The position numbers and the translations under genes were made by a program. A stretch of 49,427 nt of DNA, from the NCBI GenBank assembly GCA_001897535.1, contig MKTC01000039.1:1-49427 (forward strand). Reading direction: 5' to 3'. Every line of letters begins with the position of its first letter. Within the stretch, counting starts at the first letter, position 1. Below are positions 4,618-38,326 of the stretch, piece by piece. The stretch comes from Bacteroidetes bacterium 37-13 (GTDB lineage: Bacteria; Bacteroidota; Bacteroidia; Chitinophagales; LD1). A model generated the notes under the pieces. It was given only the letters and a program-made list of their open reading frames with translations. It did no database searches and had not been told where the DNA came from.

Positions 4618-5469
4618 CTACTTTGTAAATTTTTTTATTGCATCTGCAATGGTTTTTATTTCTTGTTCCATTTGCTTTACTGCTTGCATTAAATGCAGCT
4701 TAAAATCTTGTTGTTGTTCTTTGCTGTTATTTTCCTTTGCTAAAAGTATTGCAAATCCTGATATACTGCGCAGTGGCTCGCGCAAGTGATGGTATGTTTT
4801 CGTAAAGAGCTTGGTTAAATTTGCATTGTTCTGTTCTAATGAATTATTGATGCGCTCTATTTCTTCAATATCTCTATTCAAATTTTGCAAGCTCAAATAA
4901 GTTAATACTAAATTCAGTAGCAGCAACAACACTACTGATACGCTTATTATGCTTAACCTTTTATACTCCTGACTATTTTTCTCTCTAATATCATTTAGCA
5001 AAGAGAACGTAATATTTGTATTGTTTAATTGAATACTATCCATCAATACTTTGCCATGCCCACTTGCAACAGCAGCTACCGCCAATCCATTATTGTTAGA
5101 TTCTATCAAATAAATCACATTATCCATAAACGCTGCTTTTTTAGCGTAAAACGAATCCACTCTACTTATCTCGTCAGACACAATTTCACTTTCACTCTGT
5201 GTAATTTCTATTTTTGAAAATTCGTTCTTAGCCATCATGTAAGCATCAAAAAATAGCTGATTCTTTGTGAGTACATATCCTCTAAAAGAACTTTCGGCAT
5301 CCAACGCTAACTCTACTCGCTTATTTAGCTTTTTAATAGTTTGCTCTGTGTTGCCGATTTCTTCTGAATTGCTTCTAACCTGAGTTAAAAAGAAAATAGT
5401 TCCCACTGAAAGCAGAAAAAGCAACACCGGGTTGATATACAATATAACTATTCTCTTGTTAATGTTCAT
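4618..5469 (-). CDS. CHASE3-type sensor with HisKA-like helix but no ATPase domain
   Basis: 283 residues. Transmembrane helix 1 is about 8-30. The extracytoplasmic helical region (31-165) contains ESSFRGYVLT, the hallmark of CHASE3 domains. Transmembrane helix 2 is about 171-195, followed by a short coiled coil. Near 225-235 lies YHHLREPLRSISGF, closely matching the SHDLKEPLR phospho-acceptor box of histidine kinases, with H227 in the His position. The protein ends about 45 residues later, with no N, G1, F or G2 boxes. The convergent epimerase gene begins 3 bases after the stop, so the ATPase domain has not simply shifted frame. It is either a receptor/phosphotransfer-like protein or a truncated kinase. 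The YbhN-like gene upstream ends 6 bases from its start, suggesting co-transcription. Confidence 0.7.
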   Translation of the reverse strand: MNINKRIVILYINPVLLFLLSVGTIFFLTQVRSNSEEIGNTEQTIKKLNKRVELALDAESSFRGYVLTKNQLFFDAYMMAKNEFSKIEITQSESEIVSDEISRVDSFYAKKAAFMDNVIYLIESNNNGLAVAAVASGHGKVLMDSIQLNNTNITFSLLNDIREKNSQEYKRLSIISVSVVLLLLLNLVLTYLSLQNLNRDIEEIERINNSLEQNNANLTKLFTKTYHHLREPLRSISGFAILLAKENNSKEQQQDFKLHLMQAVKQMEQEIKTIADAIKKFTK

Positions 5470-5475
5470 AGCTAT

Positions 5476-6540
5476 CTAATTGTTTACACGTTTCAACCAC
5501 TTTGGCAAAATAAACACACCGGCTAAAATATAATTATAGTAACTAAACAAACGCCAAACTGTTGCAACCGCAGCCGAAAGCCCACCCGGAATAAACTCAC
5601 AGTTTAATGCTATAAAACTCAACTCTGCCAAGCCGCTTGCTCCTGGTGTAGAAGGCAACAACAAGAATGTCCACAAAACATATTGCCGCGAAAAAATATC
5701 GAACTGATTTAAGTTTACATCTGTGAATGCTAAAAATAAAGCATTTGCTAAAGCATGTCTACTTATCCAAGCAATTATGGTTACCAGTGAAATTTTTACC
5801 CAAAATCCCACACTCTCTTTTTTAAAATGGTTGGCAGTAATTTCAAGTTCGTTGCCTAAACTTTCCAAATTAGTTTCAAAGCGTTTTAAAAACCTTATTT
5901 TCCCTAAACGGTGAATTACATTTTTCAGCTTTTCGGGTTTTGCTAATAAGCCGATGATTAAGAAAACGCTGATTACAATTTGTGCAGCATACACAATCCA
6001 TGCCGCTTTTGAAAGTGAGCGTAAACCTTGCAACACAAAACGTCCGTCTAAATCGGCACAATGCGAAGAAACATCAAACATTGCCATTCCGTTTATTACA
6101 AACAGCAGCGTGAACACCACTACAAACGCCAGATTATCTAAAATTACTGTGAGCATAATTGTGGCAATGGTTTGCCCGTAGCTTATACCTTCTTTGCGCA
6201 AAATAAAAAGTGCTAATGCAATGCCACCAACAGCTCCGGGCGTTACCGCACTGCCAAACTCCCACAATAAAATTACTTGCAAACTAACCCACCAGCTCAT
6301 TTTGCTGCCGGTTACTTTCTTTATGCGATACATATAAGCTAAATCGCGCAACGAAACGGTGATAAGTGCAAAAAATAATCCCACCAACAACTGTTGTGAC
6401 AATTCTATTTTTTCAAGTGTTTTAAAACTAAAATTACTTGCAATTAAATAAACAGAAACACTAAGGCTCAACAATACGGGAAGCCAAATTGCTCTTAAAT
6501 TCAATGGTAGTTTTTCAGTATTTGGCTGTTGGTTCTGCAT
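5476..6540 (-). CDS. YbhN/AglD-like integral membrane protein (UPF0104)
   Basis: 354 residues, almost entirely hydrophobic with about eight predicted helices. LLWEFGSAVTPGAVGG (near 100) and LLPSTPGASGLAE (near 295-310) are the two conserved Pro-Gly loops of the lysylphosphatidylglycerol-synthase transmembrane/UPF0104 family. Members act as flippases or as the membrane half of MprF; here there is no soluble synthetase domain, so an MprF role is not supported. It is transcribed leftward with the CHASE3 protein 6 bases downstream. Confidence 0.8.
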   Translation of the reverse strand: MQNQQPNTEKLPLNLRAIWLPVLLSLSVSVYLIASNFSFKTLEKIELSQQLLVGLFFALITVSLRDLAYMYRIKKVTGSKMSWWVSLQVILLWEFGSAVTPGAVGGIALALFILRKEGISYGQTIATIMLTVILDNLAFVVVFTLLFVINGMAMFDVSSHCADLDGRFVLQGLRSLSKAAWIVYAAQIVISVFLIIGLLAKPEKLKNVIHRLGKIRFLKRFETNLESLGNELEITANHFKKESVGFWVKISLVTIIAWISRHALANALFLAFTDVNLNQFDIFSRQYVLWTFLLLPSTPGASGLAELSFIALNCEFIPGGLSAAVATVWRLFSYYNYILAGVFILPKWLKRVNN

Positions 6541-6725
6541 GAAGTTAGCGCGTGTAAATTAAGTCTAGTAGTTTAGAAGTTAAAATTACACACGTAAAAA
6601 AAAGTAAACTGAAACATTGTTTATAGATTTCTTCTATAAGATAGCTCTTTTTGTCTTATCTCAACGCTTTAAATAATACAATATCTTCAAATTTTATATC
6701 ATCAAAAAAAAAGTATTTTTACCGC

Positions 6726-6926
6726 ATGAAAATCTTTTACTTATTTTTCGCAGCATTACTTTTAGGCGCTTCTTCATGCAATAAATGTTACCGTTGTGAT
6801 TTAAGCACAACAACCGTAACCGATGTTAAAGAAATCTGTCGCAATAATTTTGAAGGCGATAAAGTAACGTTTCAAAAAACGATAGATGCTTACATTGCTG
6901 CCGGCTACAAGTGCAATGCCAAATAA
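6726..6926 (+). CDS. Small Cys-rich lipoprotein
   Basis: 66 residues, taking the ATG at 6726, which directly precedes a classical lipoprotein signal (MKIFYLFFAALLLGASSC). The frame is open 75 bases further upstream, but that part lacks signal-peptide character. After the lipid-attachment Cys come CNKCYRC and two further Cys near the C-terminus, so disulfides or metal binding are possible. Bacteroidota carry many short lipoproteins of this general pattern. No function can be assigned. Confidence 0.6.
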   Translation: MKIFYLFFAALLLGASSCNKCYRCDLSTTTVTDVKEICRNNFEGDKVTFQKTIDAYIAAGYKCNAK

Positions 6927-6952
6927 GCCTAATCGCTGCAAATAGCTTAGTA

Positions 6953-6983
6953 TTTACACAAAAAGTGTAAACTTTTCGTTTTA
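6953..6983 (+). terminator. Terminator after the small lipoprotein gene
   Basis: TTTACAC at 6953-6959 pairs with GTGTAAA at 6965-6971 around a five-A loop, and is followed by T-rich ACTTTTCGTTTT. It lies 27 bases after the stop codon. Confidence 0.5.
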
Positions 6984-7087
6984 TTACTTTTTGCCACTTT
7001 GTGAATTTCATCAATAGCTGCAACACTTAGCAGAATTGAATATTTCTCGTATCCTGTAACCGTGCCACCTAATTTCACAATAAAATT

Positions 7088-7095
7088 TATCTTCG
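7088..7095 (+). promoter_or_regulatory. Candidate -7 box upstream of yidC
   Basis: TATCTTCG differs from the Bacteroidota TAnnTTTG box at one base and is followed by CGCTCCC. The same string, TATCTTCGC then an R-CTCCC run, occurs before rpmE2. I see no good -33 element at the usual distance, so this is weak alone. Confidence 0.3.
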
Positions 7096-7146
7096 CGCTC
7101 CCGTTTTTTGGGAAAAAGTACAGAACAAAACGTTTGCAATACTAAA

Positions 7147-9030
7147 ATGGATAATCGCAATACGCTTATTGGAACGATTTTAATCGGATTGTTATTGGTA
7201 GTTTTTTTTACCTATACCAGTAAAAAACAAGAAGAACAAAAACAACTTCAAGCCAAGCAAAAAACCGAGCAACTAAAGTCGGAAACACAGCTTAAACAAG
7301 CCAACCCAAGCGAGCAAGCACTCTCTGCTTCAAACGAGCAGCCTGTTGAAGAGCTAACCGATTCTGCGGCAATTGCACAAAAAGAAAGCAACTTTGGTGC
7401 ATTTGCATCTGTAGCAACCGGAGAGTCGAAAAAAATTGTGGTTGAAAGTGATGTTCAAAAAGTAACCTTTAATACCAAAGGTGGCTTTATCGAAAGTATT
7501 CAACTTAAAAAATACAAAACTTGGGACGGCAAACCGCTTGTTTTATTTAATTCAAGCAACACAAGTTTTGCTTACCAATTTGTGGGTGCAAACAACCAGA
7601 TTGTGAGCACTGCCGATTTATATTTTGAACCGGTTGGCGAGCCATTTACAATTAGCGAAAAAGAAACCAAAACCTTTGCCCTAAGAGCAAAAGCAGGAAA
7701 TGGTTACATAGAGCAACAATACACTTTTAAAGGTGGAGATTATTTAATTGATTACAACTTAGCTTTTAAAGATTTGCAAGGTGCAGTAGCTGCTAACAAT
7801 ACTTTTATTAGTGGAAATTGGAGTAGCACATTGCCTGTTTTGGAAAAAGATTTAACGACCGAAAGACGTTATTCTGCACTCTATTTTCGCCATAAAGACA
7901 GCGATGTAGATCATTTGAGTGAAGACAAAAACGATGAGCAAAACATTAGCACACCAATGCAATGGATTTCGTTTAAGCAACAGTTTTTTAATACTACGCT
8001 TATTAGCCGCAAAGGCGATATTAAAAGCGCTTCACTTAAATCTGTTCAAGTAAATGAAGACAAAGGTTATGTAAAAAAATACAATGCCAATTTCACTATT
8101 CCATACAATAGTTCAGGTGATGTAAAATATGCTTTCAGCATTTATGCCGGACCAAATTATTACAAAACACTTTCTGATATTGGACTTGACTTTAAAGACA
8201 TTTTAAAGCTGGCTCCGGATTTCTTCCTGTTTTCTTGGATGAAATATATTACTCGAGCTATTATTTGGGTTTTCAGCTTGTTTAATTCTACACATCTTAA
8301 CTATGGTATCATTATTTTAATAATGACCATTGCCGTGAAAATAATTCTGCATCCACTCACCTATAAATCATACAAGAGTGCAGCTTCCATGAAATTGCTT
8401 CAACCGGAATTAACCGAGCTGCGCGAAAAATACAAAGACGACCAAACTCGCTTGGGTCAAGAGCAAATGAAGCTATACAGCAAAGCCGGAGTGAGTCCGT
8501 TTGGCGGTTGCCTGCCTATGCTTTTGCAAATGCCCATTTTAATGTCGATGTACTACTTTTTCCCTGCCTCAATTGAGTTGCGGCAGCAGCCATTTTTATG
8601 GGCTACCGATTTAAGTAGTTACGATGCCATTGTAACCTTTAGCAGCGCATTGCCGCTTATCGGGCAGCACATCAGTTTGTTCACCATTTTAATGACCATT
8701 ACTTCAATATTCCAAGCGGTAATGAATAAAAACATTAACCAAATGGGGCAGCAACAAGCCGGAATGCAATATCTTCCGTACATTATGCCGGTTTTCTTAA
8801 TGTTTTTATTCAATAGTTTCCCTGCGGCATTAACTTATTATTACTTGCTACAAAACGTAATTGGAATGGCGCAGCAGTGGATTATTCAAAAATTCTTTAT
8901 TGATGAAAAGAAACTGCACAAGCAAATTGAGGAAAATAAAAAGAATCCCAAACCGAAATCTTCTTGGCAACAAAAATTAGAAGAAATGCAACGCCAAACT
9001 GCTCAAAAGCAACAACAGCGAAAAAAATAA
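7147..9030 (+). CDS. yidC: Membrane protein insertase YidC
   Basis: 627 residues, starting at the ATG that gives MDNRNTLIGTILIGLLLVVF, the usual YidC N-terminal anchor; an ATG 39 bases upstream adds an atypical leader. After the first helix and a charged Gln/Lys-rich linker comes the periplasmic beta-domain (about 90-340). The conserved insertase core follows from about 350: a helix pair, LHPLTYKSYKSAASM, then KAGVSPFGGCLPMLLQMPI with the hallmark GGCLPMLLQMP, and further helices with FNSFPAALTYYYLLQN. The tail is Lys/Gln-rich, as in ribosome-binding YidC tails. YidC inserts and folds inner-membrane proteins with or without SecYEG, including F-ATPase subunits such as those encoded downstream. 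Confidence 0.97.
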   Translation: MDNRNTLIGTILIGLLLVVFFTYTSKKQEEQKQLQAKQKTEQLKSETQLKQANPSEQALSASNEQPVEELTDSAAIAQKESNFGAFASVATGESKKIVVESDVQKVTFNTKGGFIESIQLKKYKTWDGKPLVLFNSSNTSFAYQFVGANNQIVSTADLYFEPVGEPFTISEKETKTFALRAKAGNGYIEQQYTFKGGDYLIDYNLAFKDLQGAVAANNTFISGNWSSTLPVLEKDLTTERRYSALYFRHKDSDVDHLSEDKNDEQNISTPMQWISFKQQFFNTTLISRKGDIKSASLKSVQVNEDKGYVKKYNANFTIPYNSSGDVKYAFSIYAGPNYYKTLSDIGLDFKDILKLAPDFFLFSWMKYITRAIIWVFSLFNSTHLNYGIIILIMTIAVKIILHPLTYKSYKSAASMKLLQPELTELREKYKDDQTRLGQEQMKLYSKAGVSPFGGCLPMLLQMPILMSMYYFFPASIELRQQPFLWATDLSSYDAIVTFSSALPLIGQHISLFTILMTITSIFQAVMNKNINQMGQQQAGMQYLPYIMPVFLMFLFNSFPAALTYYYLLQNVIGMAQQWIIQKFFIDEKKLHKQIEENKKNPKPKSSWQQKLEEMQRQTAQKQQQRKK

Positions 9031-9138: not shown

Positions 9139-9618
9139 ATGAAAAGGATAATTTTACTCGCAGTTATTGTTTTGGTAGGTTTCCAAAATTGCAAAACAGC
9201 AACCAAAACTAATCAAGAAGAAAAGCCTGTTTTTTCACTGTTCAGAACCGTATGTTTTGGCACTTGCCCTTCGTATTCTTTAGAAGTTTACAACAATCAC
9301 AAAGTTGTGTTTGAAGGTTTGCATTTTGTAGAGCCAATGGGCAAACATACCTTTTCAATTTCTGCCTCAGAATTTAAAGCCTTAAAAGAAAAATTTAATG
9401 AACTTTCTATAGCAAAGCTTGATAGTTTTTATCCAAAAGACGGCTTAATTCCACAAGATATTCCTTCGGTAATTATTACTTCAAACATAAACGGAGTAGC
9501 AAAGAAAACCGAAGTAAAAGGTAGTGGCGCTCCAGCAGCCCTTCGTGAATGGATAGAAACACTTGAAACGTTAAAAACATCAGTTTTAAGTAAAAATAGC
9601 ATATCTCCCGAAAAATAG
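9139..9618 (+). CDS. DUF6438-type lipoprotein
   Basis: 159 residues. The N-terminus MKRIILLAVIVLVGFQNCK is a lipoprotein signal with Cys at about 19. The body contains FRTVCFGTCPSYSLEVY followed by a G-x-H/F pattern (KHTFSIS). I recognise this from DUF6438 proteins, where the conserved CFGTCP pair probably forms a disulfide. Biochemical function is unknown. It sits alone, about 70 bases before a T9SS cargo gene on the same strand. Confidence 0.65.
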   Translation: MKRIILLAVIVLVGFQNCKTATKTNQEEKPVFSLFRTVCFGTCPSYSLEVYNNHKVVFEGLHFVEPMGKHTFSISASEFKALKEKFNELSIAKLDSFYPKDGLIPQDIPSVIITSNINGVAKKTEVKGSGAPAALREWIETLETLKTSVLSKNSISPEK

Positions 9619-9688
9619 TTTCAGCGAATTGGCAAAAATACTATTTTCGTATCCTCGATTTTTTTTTAAACAAACTTCTCTACTAAAA

Positions 9689-12232
9689 ATGAAGAAACTT
9701 TTACTGCCATTGGCACTTATAGTTGCGGCAACTTCTGTTGATGCGCAAAGTTTAAGAGCAATTAAACAGGATGTAAGTGTTATGCAAAAAATTTACTCTC
9801 GCGATGGAGTACCTTTTAACACAAACACACCACGCCTCCTAGCACCTTTAGCTCCTAAACAAAACAAAGCAATACGATCTGTAAACGCAGTTCAAATTGG
9901 TGTAGCCGGCAATCTGTATACCGTGTTAAATGATGGAACCAAATCGCTTTATGCAGACGACTCTGTTGGTACAGTTACTTTTATTCACCGTGGCCCGGGA
10001 GATACAGGTCCTAAAAACAAAGGACAGTTTGTATATGATATTTCAAAGGATAACGGTGCAACTTGGACAACAAACGTAGGTCCGCTAAACCCTTCAGGAA
10101 TTTATACCGGAACACCATCTGCTCGTTTTCCGCAAGCAGCAATTTTCCGCCCAAATAATACAACAAATGCCGATAGCGCATATATAGTATATTCCGGTGC
10201 TTGGTTAGATTATACTAGTAGCGGAGGTGGCAACGACCAGTGGGAAGGGGATTTTCGTGGTGTTGGTCGTTTAGATGGCAATGCAAGCACCTATACTGAA
10301 TCTGCAGATTTAGTAAACGGAGGTTATGTTGGAGTAGCTGAAGGTTTTAAAACTAGCGGCAATGGCGTGTTTTGGAATTTGAACGTAAACTACAGAGAAG
10401 AAACAGACATTAACACCGGAGGTATTATTTACTACCGCGACTCTTTAATAATTACGAAAGGCGTTTGGAATACAACAACAAAAACAGTTGATTGGACAGA
10501 AACGCAGTTTGCACACCACGCTTTAGTAGCTGATGTTGATGGCTCAGGAAGTTCTTATACACTACTTAATGATTTTGATATTGCTTTTGCTCCAGACGGA
10601 CAAACCGGATGGTTGGCACTAAAAGGCGATTTTTTAGATGACGGAAAATATACTTACGATCCCGTTTTCTACAAAACTACCGATGGTGGAAATACTTGGG
10701 GTTCTCCTATTTATGTAAACCTTACTTCTCTACAGCAAATCTATTTTGACTTAAATCCAGATTTATCTAAAGTTGCAACAACTATAAATGCCTCAGATTT
10801 AAGCGTTGATGCATTCGGAAATCCTCACTACGCCATTTTAGCTTTAAGTGCTGCAGTTACCGACCAAGCAGGAGATACAGTTAAATACAACTACTATCCA
10901 AATGCAGGCATCGGTTTATACGATGTAACTTTTGATCCAAGTGCGGGTAATGGTTGCGAATGGAAAGCCGTATTCTTAGAGCAAGTAATTTCAGGAAATC
11001 CTGGCTCTCGCTTTACAGAAGACCAAAGCGGTGCTGCAATTCCTTTGGAGAGCCGTGTTAATATTTCGCGCTCAAGAGATGGTAAAAAATTATTCTTTAC
11101 TTGGTTAGATACTGATTTTATACAAGGTGTAAACCCAGATCCGGCTGATAATTTCTACAAAAACATATCTCCAAACTTATTTGGAAAAGGATTTGATGTT
11201 CAAAGCCAAAAATTAACTATTACTAAAAACTTTACTGCAAATGATGCACAGTTTGGTGGAGACGGAATAGGAAGCTTTGGAGGAGCAATGTTTCCAATGG
11301 TTTCTCCTACAACTATTCTAAGCGGAACAACCAATAAAATTCCAGTTGTTTTAGCTGAAGTAGATTTTGCTCAATCAAATTTCAATAGCAAATACGGCAC
11401 TAATCCTGCTCGTTTCTATTACATTAACGATTTGCAATTTACCGATGCTGAATTTACCGAAGTGTTGGGAGATAGCCTTCCTCCAATTATTACATTAAAT
11501 GGCAACGATACCATTGTTGTGTTGTTGGGTGGAACTTACACCGAACAAGGTGCTACAGCACTTGATTGCAAAGACGGAACTATCACTCCTGTAGTATCTG
11601 GAAATGTAGATCCAAACACTGCAGGAAATTATGAAGTTACTTACATTGCAGTTGATAACGCTGGCAATGCCGATACTGCTACAAGAATCGTTTTAGTTGG
11701 TCGCGACCCAATTGCAAACTTTAATAAGAAAACAGAAGTGCAAGTTGGAAACGGTAAGCGTTTAACTTTAGAAGATAAATCTACCTTCTCTCCTACTTCT
11801 TGGTCTTGGAGCTTTGGCGCTGGTGCTTCACCTGCCATTTCTTACGCTAAAAATCCAGTTGTTACTTACACTACAGGCGGTCAAAAGTGTATCAAATTAA
11901 CCGTTACTAACTCTTTCGGTTCTGATGACACAACTATTTGCTACGAAGTAACTGTAGGAATTAACGAAGTTATTTTTAACCAATCGCTTAGTGTTTATCC
12001 AAACCCTTCAAACGGACAAGTATTTGTGAGTGTTGCTGGTTTAGATAATGAAAAAGCAACTGTTACTGTAATGAATACTTTAGGCGATGTAGTTCTTCCT
12101 GCAATTACTCGCGTAATCAACGGAAGCGAAACTATTGTAATTGACGGTTCTAAATTAGCTGCCGGAAGCTACTTAGTAAAAATACAAGCTGCAACAGCAA
12201 CTGCTGTAAGACAAATTTCTATAGTGAAATAA
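9689..12232 (+). CDS. T9SS-secreted protein: propeller-like, Ig-like and PKD domains
   Basis: 847 residues from the ATG that gives MKKLLLPLALIVAATSVDAQ, a clear signal peptide; an upstream frame extension is not signal-like. The large N-terminal part includes TTDGGNTWGSP (about 330-340), an Asp-box as found in sialidase/BNR-type beta-propellers. At about 597-672 lies a DUF5011/HYR-like Ig domain (GGTYTEQGATALDCKDG, then YIAVDNAGNAD). At 673-755 there is a PKD domain (PIANF, SWSWSFGAG). At 767-847 there is a type A T9SS sorting domain (SVYPNPSNG, then GSYLVKIQ). It is therefore exported by Sec, passed through the type IX system and anchored to or released from the surface. The substrate is unknown, and I see no sialidase catalytic set. 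Confidence 0.8.
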   Translation: MKKLLLPLALIVAATSVDAQSLRAIKQDVSVMQKIYSRDGVPFNTNTPRLLAPLAPKQNKAIRSVNAVQIGVAGNLYTVLNDGTKSLYADDSVGTVTFIHRGPGDTGPKNKGQFVYDISKDNGATWTTNVGPLNPSGIYTGTPSARFPQAAIFRPNNTTNADSAYIVYSGAWLDYTSSGGGNDQWEGDFRGVGRLDGNASTYTESADLVNGGYVGVAEGFKTSGNGVFWNLNVNYREETDINTGGIIYYRDSLIITKGVWNTTTKTVDWTETQFAHHALVADVDGSGSSYTLLNDFDIAFAPDGQTGWLALKGDFLDDGKYTYDPVFYKTTDGGNTWGSPIYVNLTSLQQIYFDLNPDLSKVATTINASDLSVDAFGNPHYAILALSAAVTDQAGDTVKYNYYPNAGIGLYDVTFDPSAGNGCEWKAVFLEQVISGNPGSRFTEDQSGAAIPLESRVNISRSRDGKKLFFTWLDTDFIQGVNPDPADNFYKNISPNLFGKGFDVQSQKLTITKNFTANDAQFGGDGIGSFGGAMFPMVSPTTILSGTTNKIPVVLAEVDFAQSNFNSKYGTNPARFYYINDLQFTDAEFTEVLGDSLPPIITLNGNDTIVVLLGGTYTEQGATALDCKDGTITPVVSGNVDPNTAGNYEVTYIAVDNAGNADTATRIVLVGRDPIANFNKKTEVQVGNGKRLTLEDKSTFSPTSWSWSFGAGASPAISYAKNPVVTYTTGGQKCIKLTVTNSFGSDDTTICYEVTVGINEVIFNQSLSVYPNPSNGQVFVSVAGLDNEKATVTVMNTLGDVVLPAITRVINGSETIVIDGSKLAAGSYLVKIQAATATAVRQISIVK

Positions 12233-30888: not shown

Positions 30889-32718
30889 TTAGTTTGAATC
30901 TGCCTTTCTTACTTCTTCAATTTTAGTGATAAATTCATCTATAATTTTAATAGTTACTTCAGGGTGAGTCATGTGGTATAAATGCTCGCGAAACAAATCA
31001 TGCTCATCAACATTTGTTATATCCATCACCTCTATATTTCTACCTTGATAAATTTCGGGAACATATTTGGCAACACCGTCCATTTCACTTTTCATTATTA
31101 GCACAGGAATATTGTATTTCGGTATATTCTGCAGGCCTTTTTGATTATCAAAAGCAATAGATTCCTCTAAAGCAGAGTGAATTTGGATCGCAAAAACTTT
31201 TGCCGGCAATCTATTCAGTGCATGCTCAATCGGTATTCGATTTAAGTGCGGCAAGGAGTCTAAATTCGACATTTGCTCCATTATTTTTTTCTTCACCGAA
31301 ACCCATAATTTCTCTCGCATTTCCGAATCTTTTTTAATTAGCCATTCGGTTAAGCTAATACTTCTTTTGCGCACACCTTTTCGGCTATCAAACGGCACTG
31401 CACTTCGCAGCGCTAAAAGCATGGCGCGCGCGGTGAGGCTTTGCTTTGGCGAAATTGAAGGCAAAATAATTTCGTCCATAAAACCTAATAAAGCATGCTT
31501 GGTTTCTATTCCGAAAAAAGGATTAGCGCCAATTCTTCCACACAAATATTTTTTCACGGCCGGATAATCTTTTAGGTTTTTATCTATCATTAGAAAATAG
31601 ATATTGCCCATAGAATGGTCTAAAAGATAAACCGGATGCCCGTTGCTGCCAAAGTACTCTACAACAGCTTCAATATTTTTTGCAATATGTTTTGAATATT
31701 CCGAAGGTGGAAGTTCATAAGGAATTGTGCCGTAGTGCATGGCTGCGGCTATATATTTTTGAGTAGAAATTCCTGCCAACAAACCATCGAAAGAATTGAG
31801 TCCCAAAAAACCATGAACCATTACGATTACAGGCAATTTTTCTTTCGCATTTGGGCGATATGGAATAGCCGTGTCCACGCGAATAGTTGAGCTACCATAA
31901 GGCGTTTCGCGCACCACTTCTATTTGCGGCCAAGTGAGCGCTTTATCGTCAATAAACACACAAAGTCGCTTTTCAACCTTATCAATAAACCGGATAAAAC
32001 TTGGGCTCTCGTTTGGTTTGCCATTCACCGAATAAAGCCAAGCCAAAGGTCTGCGTTTATCGGCTTTGGTTGCCAAAAAAGCTATGCGCGCAGATTGTTT
32101 TAAAAAATGCGGAGTTGCTGTCATGGCGCGCTCTCTGCGGTAATTTACTAATACAGCAATTTCGGTTGAGTCAAATGCTTTAGATTTTCGTTCTATGCCT
32201 GCCACTCTTCCTTCGGGGCTGCACGCCAAAAACACATAATCTAAGCCGCTTTTTTTCTCTTTGTCTAAATATTTTGAAATAGTGTTGTTAAATTCTTCAA
32301 TGTAAGTTTCAAGCTCTTGGCGCGAAATTGATGAGCCCAAAATCTGCTTGCGGCTAATGTGGCCTGCTTTATATAATTTTCGAATAAAACCTTTGGCATC
32401 GGTAATGCTATCTTCGCTAAGTTGCGTGCTAAGTTGCGAGTTTACAAAGGTGTAAATAATATTTTCGGGCTTCACAATGCTTGAATAATTTTTAAAAATA
32501 TATTCATACGCTCCGGCACACGATATGCCGTGCGAAAGCCCTACGATAAATTTACCGCCTTGTTCTAAAACTTTATTGGCACTTTTAATGAAATCTTTTC
32601 CTACTCCTTTGTAAAAATCCTCACGGGTTCTAAAGTACTTCGTATCCGGAGCAATAAATGGAACAACTTCTCTCTTTTCAATTTCCGGCTTTTCTATAGA
32701 CATTTCTACACTTATCAT
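30889..32718 (-). CDS. NagB/6-phosphogluconolactonase-like domain fused to alpha/beta hydrolase
   Basis: 609 residues, no signal peptide. Residues about 25-265 resemble the 6-phosphogluconolactonase/glucosamine-6-phosphate isomerase fold: FIVGLSHGISCAGAYEYIF resembles the phosphate-binding loop, GLDYVFLACSPEGRVAG stands where those enzymes have GxGxDGHxAS, and TATPHFLKQSARIAFLATKADKR resembles the late strand. The DGH is replaced by PEGR, so isomerase or lactonase activity is doubtful. Residues about 290-600 form an alpha/beta hydrolase: VMVHGFLG (oxyanion loop), nucleophile Ser369 in LLDHSMGNIYF, Asp547 in SEMDGV, and a His among H573-H585. The substrate is unknown. It stands alone, with an unusually strong ribosome-binding site. 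Confidence 0.75.
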   Translation of the reverse strand: MISVEMSIEKPEIEKREVVPFIAPDTKYFRTREDFYKGVGKDFIKSANKVLEQGGKFIVGLSHGISCAGAYEYIFKNYSSIVKPENIIYTFVNSQLSTQLSEDSITDAKGFIRKLYKAGHISRKQILGSSISRQELETYIEEFNNTISKYLDKEKKSGLDYVFLACSPEGRVAGIERKSKAFDSTEIAVLVNYRRERAMTATPHFLKQSARIAFLATKADKRRPLAWLYSVNGKPNESPSFIRFIDKVEKRLCVFIDDKALTWPQIEVVRETPYGSSTIRVDTAIPYRPNAKEKLPVIVMVHGFLGLNSFDGLLAGISTQKYIAAAMHYGTIPYELPPSEYSKHIAKNIEAVVEYFGSNGHPVYLLDHSMGNIYFLMIDKNLKDYPAVKKYLCGRIGANPFFGIETKHALLGFMDEIILPSISPKQSLTARAMLLALRSAVPFDSRKGVRKRSISLTEWLIKKDSEMREKLWVSVKKKIMEQMSNLDSLPHLNRIPIEHALNRLPAKVFAIQIHSALEESIAFDNQKGLQNIPKYNIPVLIMKSEMDGVAKYVPEIYQGRNIEVMDITNVDEHDLFREHLYHMTHPEVTIKIIDEFITKIEEVRKADSN

Positions 32719-36490: not shown

Positions 36491-38326
36491 GTGGCTGGCA
36501 GATTTCTTTTTCTTGTTGCTTTTGTATTTGTATTAAGCGCTAAAAGCGTGTTTACACAAAGCGATAGCAGTGCCGTTTTGCGCAAGCAGGCAAACAAGCA
36601 AAAAGCCATGAAAGTGATAAACAAAACACTACACGTGCTTTCACTTTTAAACTATAGCGATAGAACTTACGACCGAACTTTTAGTGGTGCAGAAGCCTAC
36701 AAAATTTTTGAAGGAAAAGAAATTGAACGTATTGATGTTGAAATTTTACCTCCGTTTGGAGTTACTATTGATAAGCCTTACAACGACCGTTTTACTAAAT
36801 TTCAGCGGTTTGCAAACAGTATTCAATTTACCACTAAAGAGCGGATAGTACGCAACGATTTATTATTTACGGAAGGCGAAAAAGTGAAGCCGCAAAAGTT
36901 TACCGATACCGAAAGAAACATGTGGCAAGATGCCATTTACAAAGACTTAAAATTCGTACTGTGTGAGGCAGAAAACGACACTACTAAAGTGGTAGTAAAA
37001 GTAATTGTGCAGCAGCGTTGGAGTTGGAGTATTAGCACCAGTGCACAATTTGACAAAGCAATGCTCGGCATAGAATTTAAAAACATTGGAGGCTTGCCGC
37101 AGCGTATAACACAGCAAGTTTCTGCCAATTATAGAAAAGATAATCCGTACTTGGTTTTTGGAGAATACGAGTATTTAAACATTAGAAAATCGAGAATAAA
37201 CGTTTACGGAAAATATCTTTACCAACCCATAGAAAGAGGTGGAGACATTAGACTTTCGCGCAACTTTTTTAGCTCCGAATCGCACTGGGCAGCGCGAGTG
37301 AGCACAGGGCTTTACCAAAACAGTTCTATTATCCCAAATTCTTTGGCTGATGCTATAAAAGGAAAAACTTATTATAACTATCAAGATGCGTGGGGAGCAG
37401 TTGCGTTTAAAGTAAAAAACCCGAATTCCTCTACCGAAATTCACAAGATAATTTTAGCCGCGCGCTATTACCGCAAGCATTATGACGACCGCCCTTTCTC
37501 TATTAGCAAAGATAAGACTGTGCGATTTTTAAATAGAGAATATTACTTGGGCAGCGTGGGTTATGCCACTTGGAATTATTTTCAAGATGATAATGTATTC
37601 TTAAACGGAGGTTCGGAATACTTTCCTTTGGGCTTAAATTTCAATTGGGTATTCGGAGCTGAAAAAGATGAGAAATATGGTAGAAGATTTTACAACAACT
37701 TTAGAATGAGTTATTCCGCAGCATTTCCAAAGTTGTTTTACTTGAATACCGATTTTAGTTTAGGCGGTTACTACAACGGCAAAGATTTTCAACAAAAACT
37801 ATTTCAATATCGTTTGAGATTGTATTCTGCCAAAGTAAATTTGGGCAAGAAAATTTTCTTTAGGCAGTTCATTACTTTTAAGGCAAATGTTGGTTTTGAT
37901 CGCCCGAAAGATCGCGAGTTAATTTTAAATGATGCTACCGGTTTACGCGGTATGTACACCAGCCAACTCACCGCACAAAAAATCTATACCATCACACTCG
38001 AATCTGTACTTTACGGAAACTTTAAAGTTTTTGGATTTAATGGCTCTGTGGCACTTTTTGCCGATTTAGGTTGGCTACAAAACAATAAACCATATCAAAT
38101 GCAGGCAGTGCAAGGAATTGGCGCTTCTCTCCGGCTTCGGAACTTAAATTTTGGTATTGGCTATTTCGATTTCTCTTTAGTATTTTATCCTAACTTTTTA
38201 AATACACCTCAAAAGCCTTACACATTTTTATACGTACCTGAATTTTTAAAAGGTATTAGACAAGATAATTTGTTTGAATATTATTCTTTAGAGCCTGAAT
38301 ACAACGGGCAACCAACACTTCGCTAA
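36491..38326 (+). CDS. Omp85/BamA-like outer-membrane protein
   Basis: 611 residues with a GTG start giving a signal peptide, MAGRFLFLVAFVFVLSAKSVFTQ. The region about 75-175 resembles POTRA-like folds (AYKIFEGKEIERIDVEIL, NDLLFTEGEKVKPQKF, TTKVVVKVIVQQRW). From about 180 onward aromatic beta strands alternate, consistent with a 16-strand barrel, with LILNDATGLRGM near 480 matching the G-x-x-LRG-type loop of Omp85 surface-antigen proteins. It is shorter than BamA and has at most one or two POTRA units, so it is likely a TamA-like or accessory Omp85 protein. Its function is unproven. It ends 11 bases from the convergent nadE. Confidence 0.6.
   Translation: MAGRFLFLVAFVFVLSAKSVFTQSDSSAVLRKQANKQKAMKVINKTLHVLSLLNYSDRTYDRTFSGAEAYKIFEGKEIERIDVEILPPFGVTIDKPYNDRFTKFQRFANSIQFTTKERIVRNDLLFTEGEKVKPQKFTDTERNMWQDAIYKDLKFVLCEAENDTTKVVVKVIVQQRWSWSISTSAQFDKAMLGIEFKNIGGLPQRITQQVSANYRKDNPYLVFGEYEYLNIRKSRINVYGKYLYQPIERGGDIRLSRNFFSSESHWAARVSTGLYQNSSIIPNSLADAIKGKTYYNYQDAWGAVAFKVKNPNSSTEIHKIILAARYYRKHYDDRPFSISKDKTVRFLNREYYLGSVGYATWNYFQDDNVFLNGGSEYFPLGLNFNWVFGAEKDEKYGRRFYNNFRMSYSAAFPKLFYLNTDFSLGGYYNGKDFQQKLFQYRLRLYSAKVNLGKKIFFRQFITFKANVGFDRPKDRELILNDATGLRGMYTSQLTAQKIYTITLESVLYGNFKVFGFNGSVALFADLGWLQNNKPYQMQAVQGIGASLRLRNLNFGIGYFDFSLVFYPNFLNTPQKPYTFLYVPEFLKGIRQDNLFEYYSLEPEYNGQPTLR

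Follow-up and report, generated by a model that had tools for sequence, protein, structure and literature searches.

The gene studied here encodes a two-domain enzyme in which, on profile matches and predicted models, a Ser-Asp-His alpha/beta hydrolase follows a domain of the 6-phosphogluconolactonase (6PGL)/NagB fold. The reading we prefer, with a probability of about 0.4, is that the protein acts in the cytoplasm as an acyl-ester hydrolase in lipid metabolism and that its former 6PGL domain binds an anionic metabolite. The hydrolase half would cleave or transfer the acyl groups of a lipid ester, itself made or remodelled by a partner acyltransferase, and the former 6PGL domain, with a ligand that is probably phosphorylated, would control the hydrolase or position its substrate, comparable to the NagB-derived sensing of sugar phosphates in the SorC family. 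If this reading is true, a central-carbon enzyme has become the part of a lipid hydrolase that serves for control or binding, a clean natural case in which the alignment already marks the pocket residues that changed. The association of the fusion with acyltransferase genes in several related lineages points to an unstudied lipid enzyme, possibly one controlled by a metabolite.

Gene and genomic setting

The window (the whole stretch of 49,427 nucleotides analysed) corresponds to contig 39 in a genome of 3.12 Mb and 43 contigs, referred to below as the own genome (G000). The gene was assigned here to the minus strand, no strand having been named before; frame 1 of the plus strand over 30889-32718 is not open and is full of stops.

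30889..32718, minus strand: whole fusion gene, 609 aa, ATG start, stop codon at 30889-30891
31933..32658, minus strand: N-terminal 6PGL/NagB-type domain, residues 21-262 (PF01182, fold match, profile-profile comparison)
30892..31932, minus strand: C-terminal serine alpha/beta hydrolase domain, residues 263-609 (fold; triad in 54/54)

Its neighbours are tgt- and lptF/G-type genes to one side and, to the other, a GHMP kinase gene. No signal peptide was seen by eye and the protein is probably cytoplasmic. Gene order around the fusion, compared over 50 of 57 GTDB loci and the window, is not conserved beyond close relatives, and no conserved operon was found beyond them. A sugar-pathway link through the adjoining GHMP kinase was dropped; besides the fusion itself, no ORF cluster is shared by more than 7 of the 51 loci. 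A defence or phage role was also dropped, PADLOC having given no match at E<=0.1 and PHROG only a weak esterase match (E 0.032).

Distribution of the fusion

Relatives occur in 21 of 60 close genomes (a few of them fragmentary) and in 42 of 396 genomes in the order sample (some fragmentary), the own genome being included in both counts, and a GTDB-wide pattern scan recovered 57 loci; the fusion is therefore not a chance product. In 395 genomes of the class, the C half alone as query gave a strong score in 18, own genome included. Seventeen of these 18 matches are open frames of at least 495 aa and the remaining one (G930) is broken by stops; the C half is thus fused wherever a strong match has an intact frame. 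Separate C-half relatives in the class sample are limited to two weak matches (G954 and G956), not used here, whose full frames we take to resemble dienelactone-hydrolase-type proteins. In the phylum sample, 8 of 395 genomes matched, namely the own genome and seven with weak N-half matches lying in shorter frames of about 244-296 aa.

Titles of the records that contain relatives include Chitinophagales, Saprospiraceae/Aureispira and Flavobacteriales. One record titled Verrucomicrobia (L058) holds the same protein as L019 from G054, a genome of the window's order. The only record of the 57 not titled as a metagenome-assembled genome is Aureispira sp. CCB-QB1 (L039), a carrier that may be cultivable. 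The earlier note knew of no described protein of this layout; likewise, a limited literature search, mostly of non-subscription sources and directed at the Aureispira protein as well, found none among the papers listed, and no curated family spans the full length of the fusion in the profile libraries searched (Pfam, NCBIfam, PADLOC, PHROG).

The N-terminal half: a 6PGL/NagB fold with a remodelled pocket

The N half had been likened in the earlier note to the sugar-phosphate isomerase/lactonase fold, and both profile and model agree. PF01182 matches the window protein over residues 31-239 (E 3.3e-8; 34.1 bits, cut-off 27), after a short, largely low-confidence tail, and is found at E<=0.1 in 49/49 aligned relatives; in whole-genome scans the G283 and G095 fusions fall under the cut-off and that of G062 gives no match. 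Profile-profile comparison of the fusions with 15 stand-alone PF01182 proteins gave a probability of 98.4 over 227 columns. Structure prediction, carried out for each half, yielded a 6PGL/NagB fold for the N half and an alpha/beta hydrolase fold for the C half. The N-half model superposes on the 6PGL 4tm8 with Z 24.4 (rmsd 2.8, 229 aligned, model residues 20-262), and among the matches listed the solved 6-phosphogluconolactonases score Z 19.9-24.4 and the glucosamine-6-phosphate deaminases Z 19.3-21.5. Similarity to regulators is weaker than to 6PGL (sor-operon regulator Z 13.7, LsrR Z 12.3).

The pocket was compared in an alignment of 49 fusions with 15 of 16 stand-alone PF01182 proteins, L112 being omitted for want of a suitable frame. 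The catalytic-site residues of 6PGL are given in passages of PMC6165198 as Ser/Thr, Thr, Arg, His, Arg and Lys; their placement on the alignment columns is ours and not that of the paper.

32518..32538, minus strand: remodelled phosphate loop, residues 61-67, LSGGSTP replaced by LSHGxSP; His63, Gly64 and Ser66 invariant
32440..32442, minus strand: Asn93, N in 49/49 fusions, at the place of the 6PGL DER Asp (D in 15/15 stand-alone proteins)
32206..32220, minus strand: S-P-E-G-R, residues 167-171, aligned with G-x-D-G-H of 6PGL
32050..32070, minus strand: T-K-A-D-K-R-R, residues 217-223; the 6PGL Lys persists as K221, and K218 and R222 are new invariant residues

In the phosphate loop, the second residue changes from Gly (15/15 stand-alone) to His63 (49/49 fusions), and a Thr present in 14/15 stand-alone proteins is Ser66 in 49/49 fusions. 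The Arg of DER (position 95), found in 15/15 stand-alone proteins, is Pro in 28 fusions, Lys in 11, Arg in 8 and another residue in 2. The PEGR that had been noticed in place of the DGH-type motif does align there: the DGH His (position 171; 15/15 stand-alone) is replaced by Arg in 33 fusions, Gln in 7 and others in 6, and is retained in 3. The Arg before T200 (position 198), also in 15/15 stand-alone proteins, is Glu in 41 fusions, Arg in 1 and another residue in 7. Further on, Gly (15/15 stand-alone) has become Lys218 (49/49 fusions), Lys221 is retained in all 64 proteins, and Arg222 is present in 49/49 fusions versus 1/15 stand-alone proteins. The new invariant set of the fusion N domain, besides the kept K221, is H63, S66, N93, Q99, K218 and R222.

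The alignment shows that the 6PGL catalytic residues have been lost, and we infer that 6PGL activity has been lost as well. In four pairs with dS <1 in both halves, values being available only where dS was computable, dN/dS was 0.078-0.141 in the N half, against 0.063-0.088 in the C half, so that purifying selection acts on both halves in close pairs. Given a dN/dS close to that of the hydrolase half, together with the new invariant polar set, the N domain is, as read from the aligned proteins, a rebuilt pocket under selection and not a decayed relic. The description of this domain as dead holds for the 6PGL catalytic residues, but not in the sense of a remnant. Phosphate-handling residues, whose retention the earlier note had raised as a question, remain in part, as S66 (for Thr) and K221, and both Arg are mostly gone; for this reason a sugar phosphate is a plausible ligand and nothing firmer, and the loss of both Arg in most members speaks against the idea that sugar-phosphate binding was simply retained.

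The fusion is the sole PF01182 match in the own genome, where a search for G6PD found none. G6PD (PF02781), the sole pathway marker examined, occurs in 5 of 42 carriers of the order versus 123 of 354 non-carriers, a comparison that assumes both 396-genome order samples to be identical, as their genome handles suggest. Within the window's family the figures are 5/20 carriers and 7/10 non-carriers (P 0.045, treated as weak). A place in the oxidative pentose phosphate pathway is unlikely, and with G6PD in so few carriers an ordinary 6PGL is unlikely too.

The C-terminal half: a serine alpha/beta hydrolase

Motifs of the C half were counted in 54 of 61 unique proteins, those of at least 540 aa, the 7 shorter ones being omitted.

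31792..31815, minus strand: H-G-F-L-G-L-N-S, residues 302-309, oxyanion-type loop; HG (302-303) invariant, 54/54
31603..31620, minus strand: nucleophile elbow D-H-S-M-G-N, residues 367-372, with Ser369; D367, H368, S369 and N372 in 54/54
31150..31503, minus strand: helical cap within the hydrolase core, residues about 406-523 (secondary structure of the model; parts at lower confidence)
31078..31080, minus strand: Asp547, triad acid; invariant 54/54 and placed accordingly in the model
30982..30984, minus strand: His579, triad base, in E-H-L; invariant 54/54 and placed accordingly in the model

The hydrolase elements named earlier (HG loop, Ser369, Asp547 and a late His, here placed at His579) are invariant in 54/54, each member of the triad included. 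The elbow consensus among the 54 long members is D-H-S-[MI]-[GAS]-N. The C half, modelled alone from 49 sequences, has a mean pLDDT of 85.6, and its predicted cap consists of six helices. In this model the Ser lies at the turn after a core strand, the Asp after the next-to-last strand and the His after the last, which is the canonical order of alpha/beta hydrolases. All 50 solved structures listed as matches are alpha/beta hydrolases (Z 20.3-22.6), a mix of esterases, dehalogenases, haloperoxidases and epoxide hydrolases.

No Pfam family matched the C half of the window protein at E<=0.1; matches to the C halves of 49 members are weak (best E 0.0023), NCBIfam matches in the window's C half are far under cut-off, and no convincing sequence relatives of this half were found in the PDB. 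As no Pfam family claims the C half and the fold matches are mixed, assignment of a substrate class turns on Ser369 and on the neighbouring genes. Dehalogenases and epoxide hydrolases use an Asp as nucleophile; the Ser at this position therefore favours ester or thioester chemistry for the putative hydrolase.

The half resembles hydrolases of the aryl esterase/carboxylesterase kind (4x00, 4uhd, 5h3h) in its core fold (Z 21.1-22.1), Ser-Asp-His triad and HG loop, but identity to these three is 13-16% over the aligned part. It also differs from this kind in its six-helix cap, in having no curated family above cut-off, and in its D-x-S-x-G elbow, where the usual motif of alpha/beta hydrolases is G-x-S-x-G, with Gly at the place of the Asp.

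Acyltransferase genes beside the fusion

PlsC/DGAT-like acyltransferases adjoin or co-occur with the fusion in some lineages, a link that was not part of the earlier note and that the own genome does not share. Three distinct families (c3, c29 and c12) lie beside the fusion, each with a member above the PF01553 cut-off. The c3 gene adjoins the fusion divergently in L053, L057, L059, L061, L065 and L077; c29 is the next gene downstream, on the opposite strand, in L052, L072 and L075; and c12 is found downstream in the same orientation, separated from the fusion by one or two ORFs, in L026, L027 and L029. In G846, c12 starts 9 nt past the fusion stop codon on the same strand and c3 is divergent on the other side.

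Proximity was evaluated in 39 of the 59 known carriers (42 from the order and 17 further ones from the class), with the PF01553 positions in these 39 genomes as background. Within 5 kb of the fusion there were 8 PF01553 matches in 7/39 genomes versus 0.82 matches expected; by genus, the figure is 4/16 versus 0.78 expected (Poisson P 0.008). For the class genomes the fusion ends were estimated from the C-half match plus the missing N half, and matches on the fusion's contig were selected by hand from lists and then rechecked. The other 32 carriers have no match within 5 kb, many of them on short contigs.

Co-occurrence was examined for c3 and c12, which were chosen after their adjacency had been seen, and the tests are uncorrected for phylogeny. 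In the order, c12 is present in 15/33 carriers (absent from 18/33) versus 2/47 non-carriers, the carriers being 33 of 42 after omission of 9 less complete genomes; within the window's family the counts are 13/16 versus 1/6 (P 0.011). In the class, c3 is present in 15/16 carriers (16 of 17, G997 omitted) versus 2/64 genomes without a C-half match, or, by family, 4/4 versus 1/43. In the window's order c3 was found in 0/80 genomes, 33 carriers among them, with the same model matching class genomes as positive control. Neither c12 nor c3 was found in the own genome, which has five PF01553 genes, none of them on the window's contig. All c3 members compared (11/11) match PF01553, and 9/11 match DAGAT (PF03982) at E<=1 (best 2.4e-6); no convincing PDB relatives of c3 or c12 were found.

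This association favours lipid esters as the substrate of the hydrolase, and it may offer an entry to neutral- or membrane-lipid ester metabolism in Bacteroidota.

Comparison with known systems and alternative readings

The fusions share with 6PGL (Pgl/DevB, PF01182) the fold along the entire N half (best Z 24.4), the phosphate-loop residues G64 and P67, and K221, T200 and T202. They differ from it in carrying other residues, in most or all members, at the catalytic His, at the Asp and Arg of DER and at the Arg preceding T200, in their new invariant residues and attached hydrolase, and in the 37 of 42 carriers without a G6PD match. In passages of PMC11229326, SorC regulators are described as having a NagB-type active site adapted to bind effectors, and the N domain may be analogous to that of SorC/DeoR-type regulators (CggR, LsrR) in this respect; unlike them, the fusion shows no HTH or DNA-binding domain in Pfam at E<=1, and its output domain would be the hydrolase. 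Plant and algal phytyl ester synthases, which according to parts of PMC12526585 produce phytyl esters and TAG and combine an alpha/beta hydrolase region with an acyltransferase domain of the DGAT type, likewise pair an alpha/beta hydrolase with a DAGAT/PlsC-type acyltransferase, a likeness at the level of the domains described. Here, however, the two are separate genes, the acyltransferase is not in every carrier and the hydrolase bears a 6PGL-like domain; no acyltransferase domain was matched by Pfam within the fusion protein at E<=1.

What the N domain does separates the alternatives. Its fold and PF01182 match would suit a domain that is still a 6-phosphogluconolactonase or glucosamine-6-phosphate deaminase, but this is highly improbable given that the DGH His persists in 3/49 members, the Arg before T200 in 1/49 and the DER Arg in 8/49, and that G6PD occurs in only 5/42 carriers. 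Loss of these same catalytic residues would fit a purely structural or oligomerisation module attached to an ordinary esterase; several polar residues within the former active-site motifs are, however, invariant and consistently changed, and we consider this reading unlikely. The polar residues now invariant in the former active site (49/49), the purifying selection and the fusion of every intact strong C-half match could instead reflect a bifunctional enzyme, in which the N domain performs new chemistry with His63, Asn93, Lys218, Lys221 and Arg222 and the hydrolase works on what the N domain consumes or produces, such as an acylated sugar or polyol phosphate. We know of no precedent for catalysis with this residue set. 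Few or no members retain the 6PGL catalytic His, the Asp and the two Arg, and binding alone accounts for the conservation, which leaves the bifunctional enzyme about as doubtful as the structural module.

Binding could also be directed to CoA or acyl-CoA, with the hydrolase acting as a thioesterase or acyl transferase alongside the partner acyltransferase. The association with PlsC/DGAT-like genes, the gain of the basic residues K218, R222 and R223, and the superfamily name NagB/RpiA/CoA with its link to acyl-CoA transferases, as found in passages of PMC11229326, are consistent with this; the closest folds are nonetheless 6PGL and NagB, no CoA transferase is among the 50 matches listed, and we hold the CoA reading to be a little less likely again. 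Returning to the acyl-ester hydrolase with a metabolite-binding domain, a more specific and distinctly speculative extension of it is a metabolite-gated lipid switch, in which the 6PGL pseudoenzyme would sense a phosphorylated carbon metabolite or CoA and control the attached lipid acyl hydrolase in a cycle with the DGAT/PlsC-like acyltransferases. If true, this would tie the turnover of storage or membrane lipids to carbon status in mostly uncultured Bacteroidota.

Additional observations

In two carriers, L020/L060 (G018:C219) and L133/L136 (G930:C129), internal stops or a change of frame interrupt the fusion, as either sequencing error or decay might produce. The two small acyltransferase families c12 and c3 lie in L146 (G846) at 6566-7243 (minus strand) and 9215-10021 (plus strand); their scanned members score close to the PlsC cut-off of Pfam and stay below all NCBIfam cut-offs, and both families may merit separate study. 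A c29 acyltransferase-type protein adjoins the fusion in L148 (G283; 5387-6523, plus strand), and in the related genomes G301 and G381 the c29 gene is more than 400 kb from the fusion.

Elsewhere in the window, positions 5476-6540 and 4618-5469 (both minus strand) encode a lysylphosphatidylglycerol-synthase-type membrane protein (PF03706) beside a CHASE3 sensor protein. Positions 36491-38326 (plus strand) encode a 611-aa protein without a Pfam match at E<=0.01, which by eye has a likely signal peptide at its start and resembles an outer-membrane beta-barrel protein.
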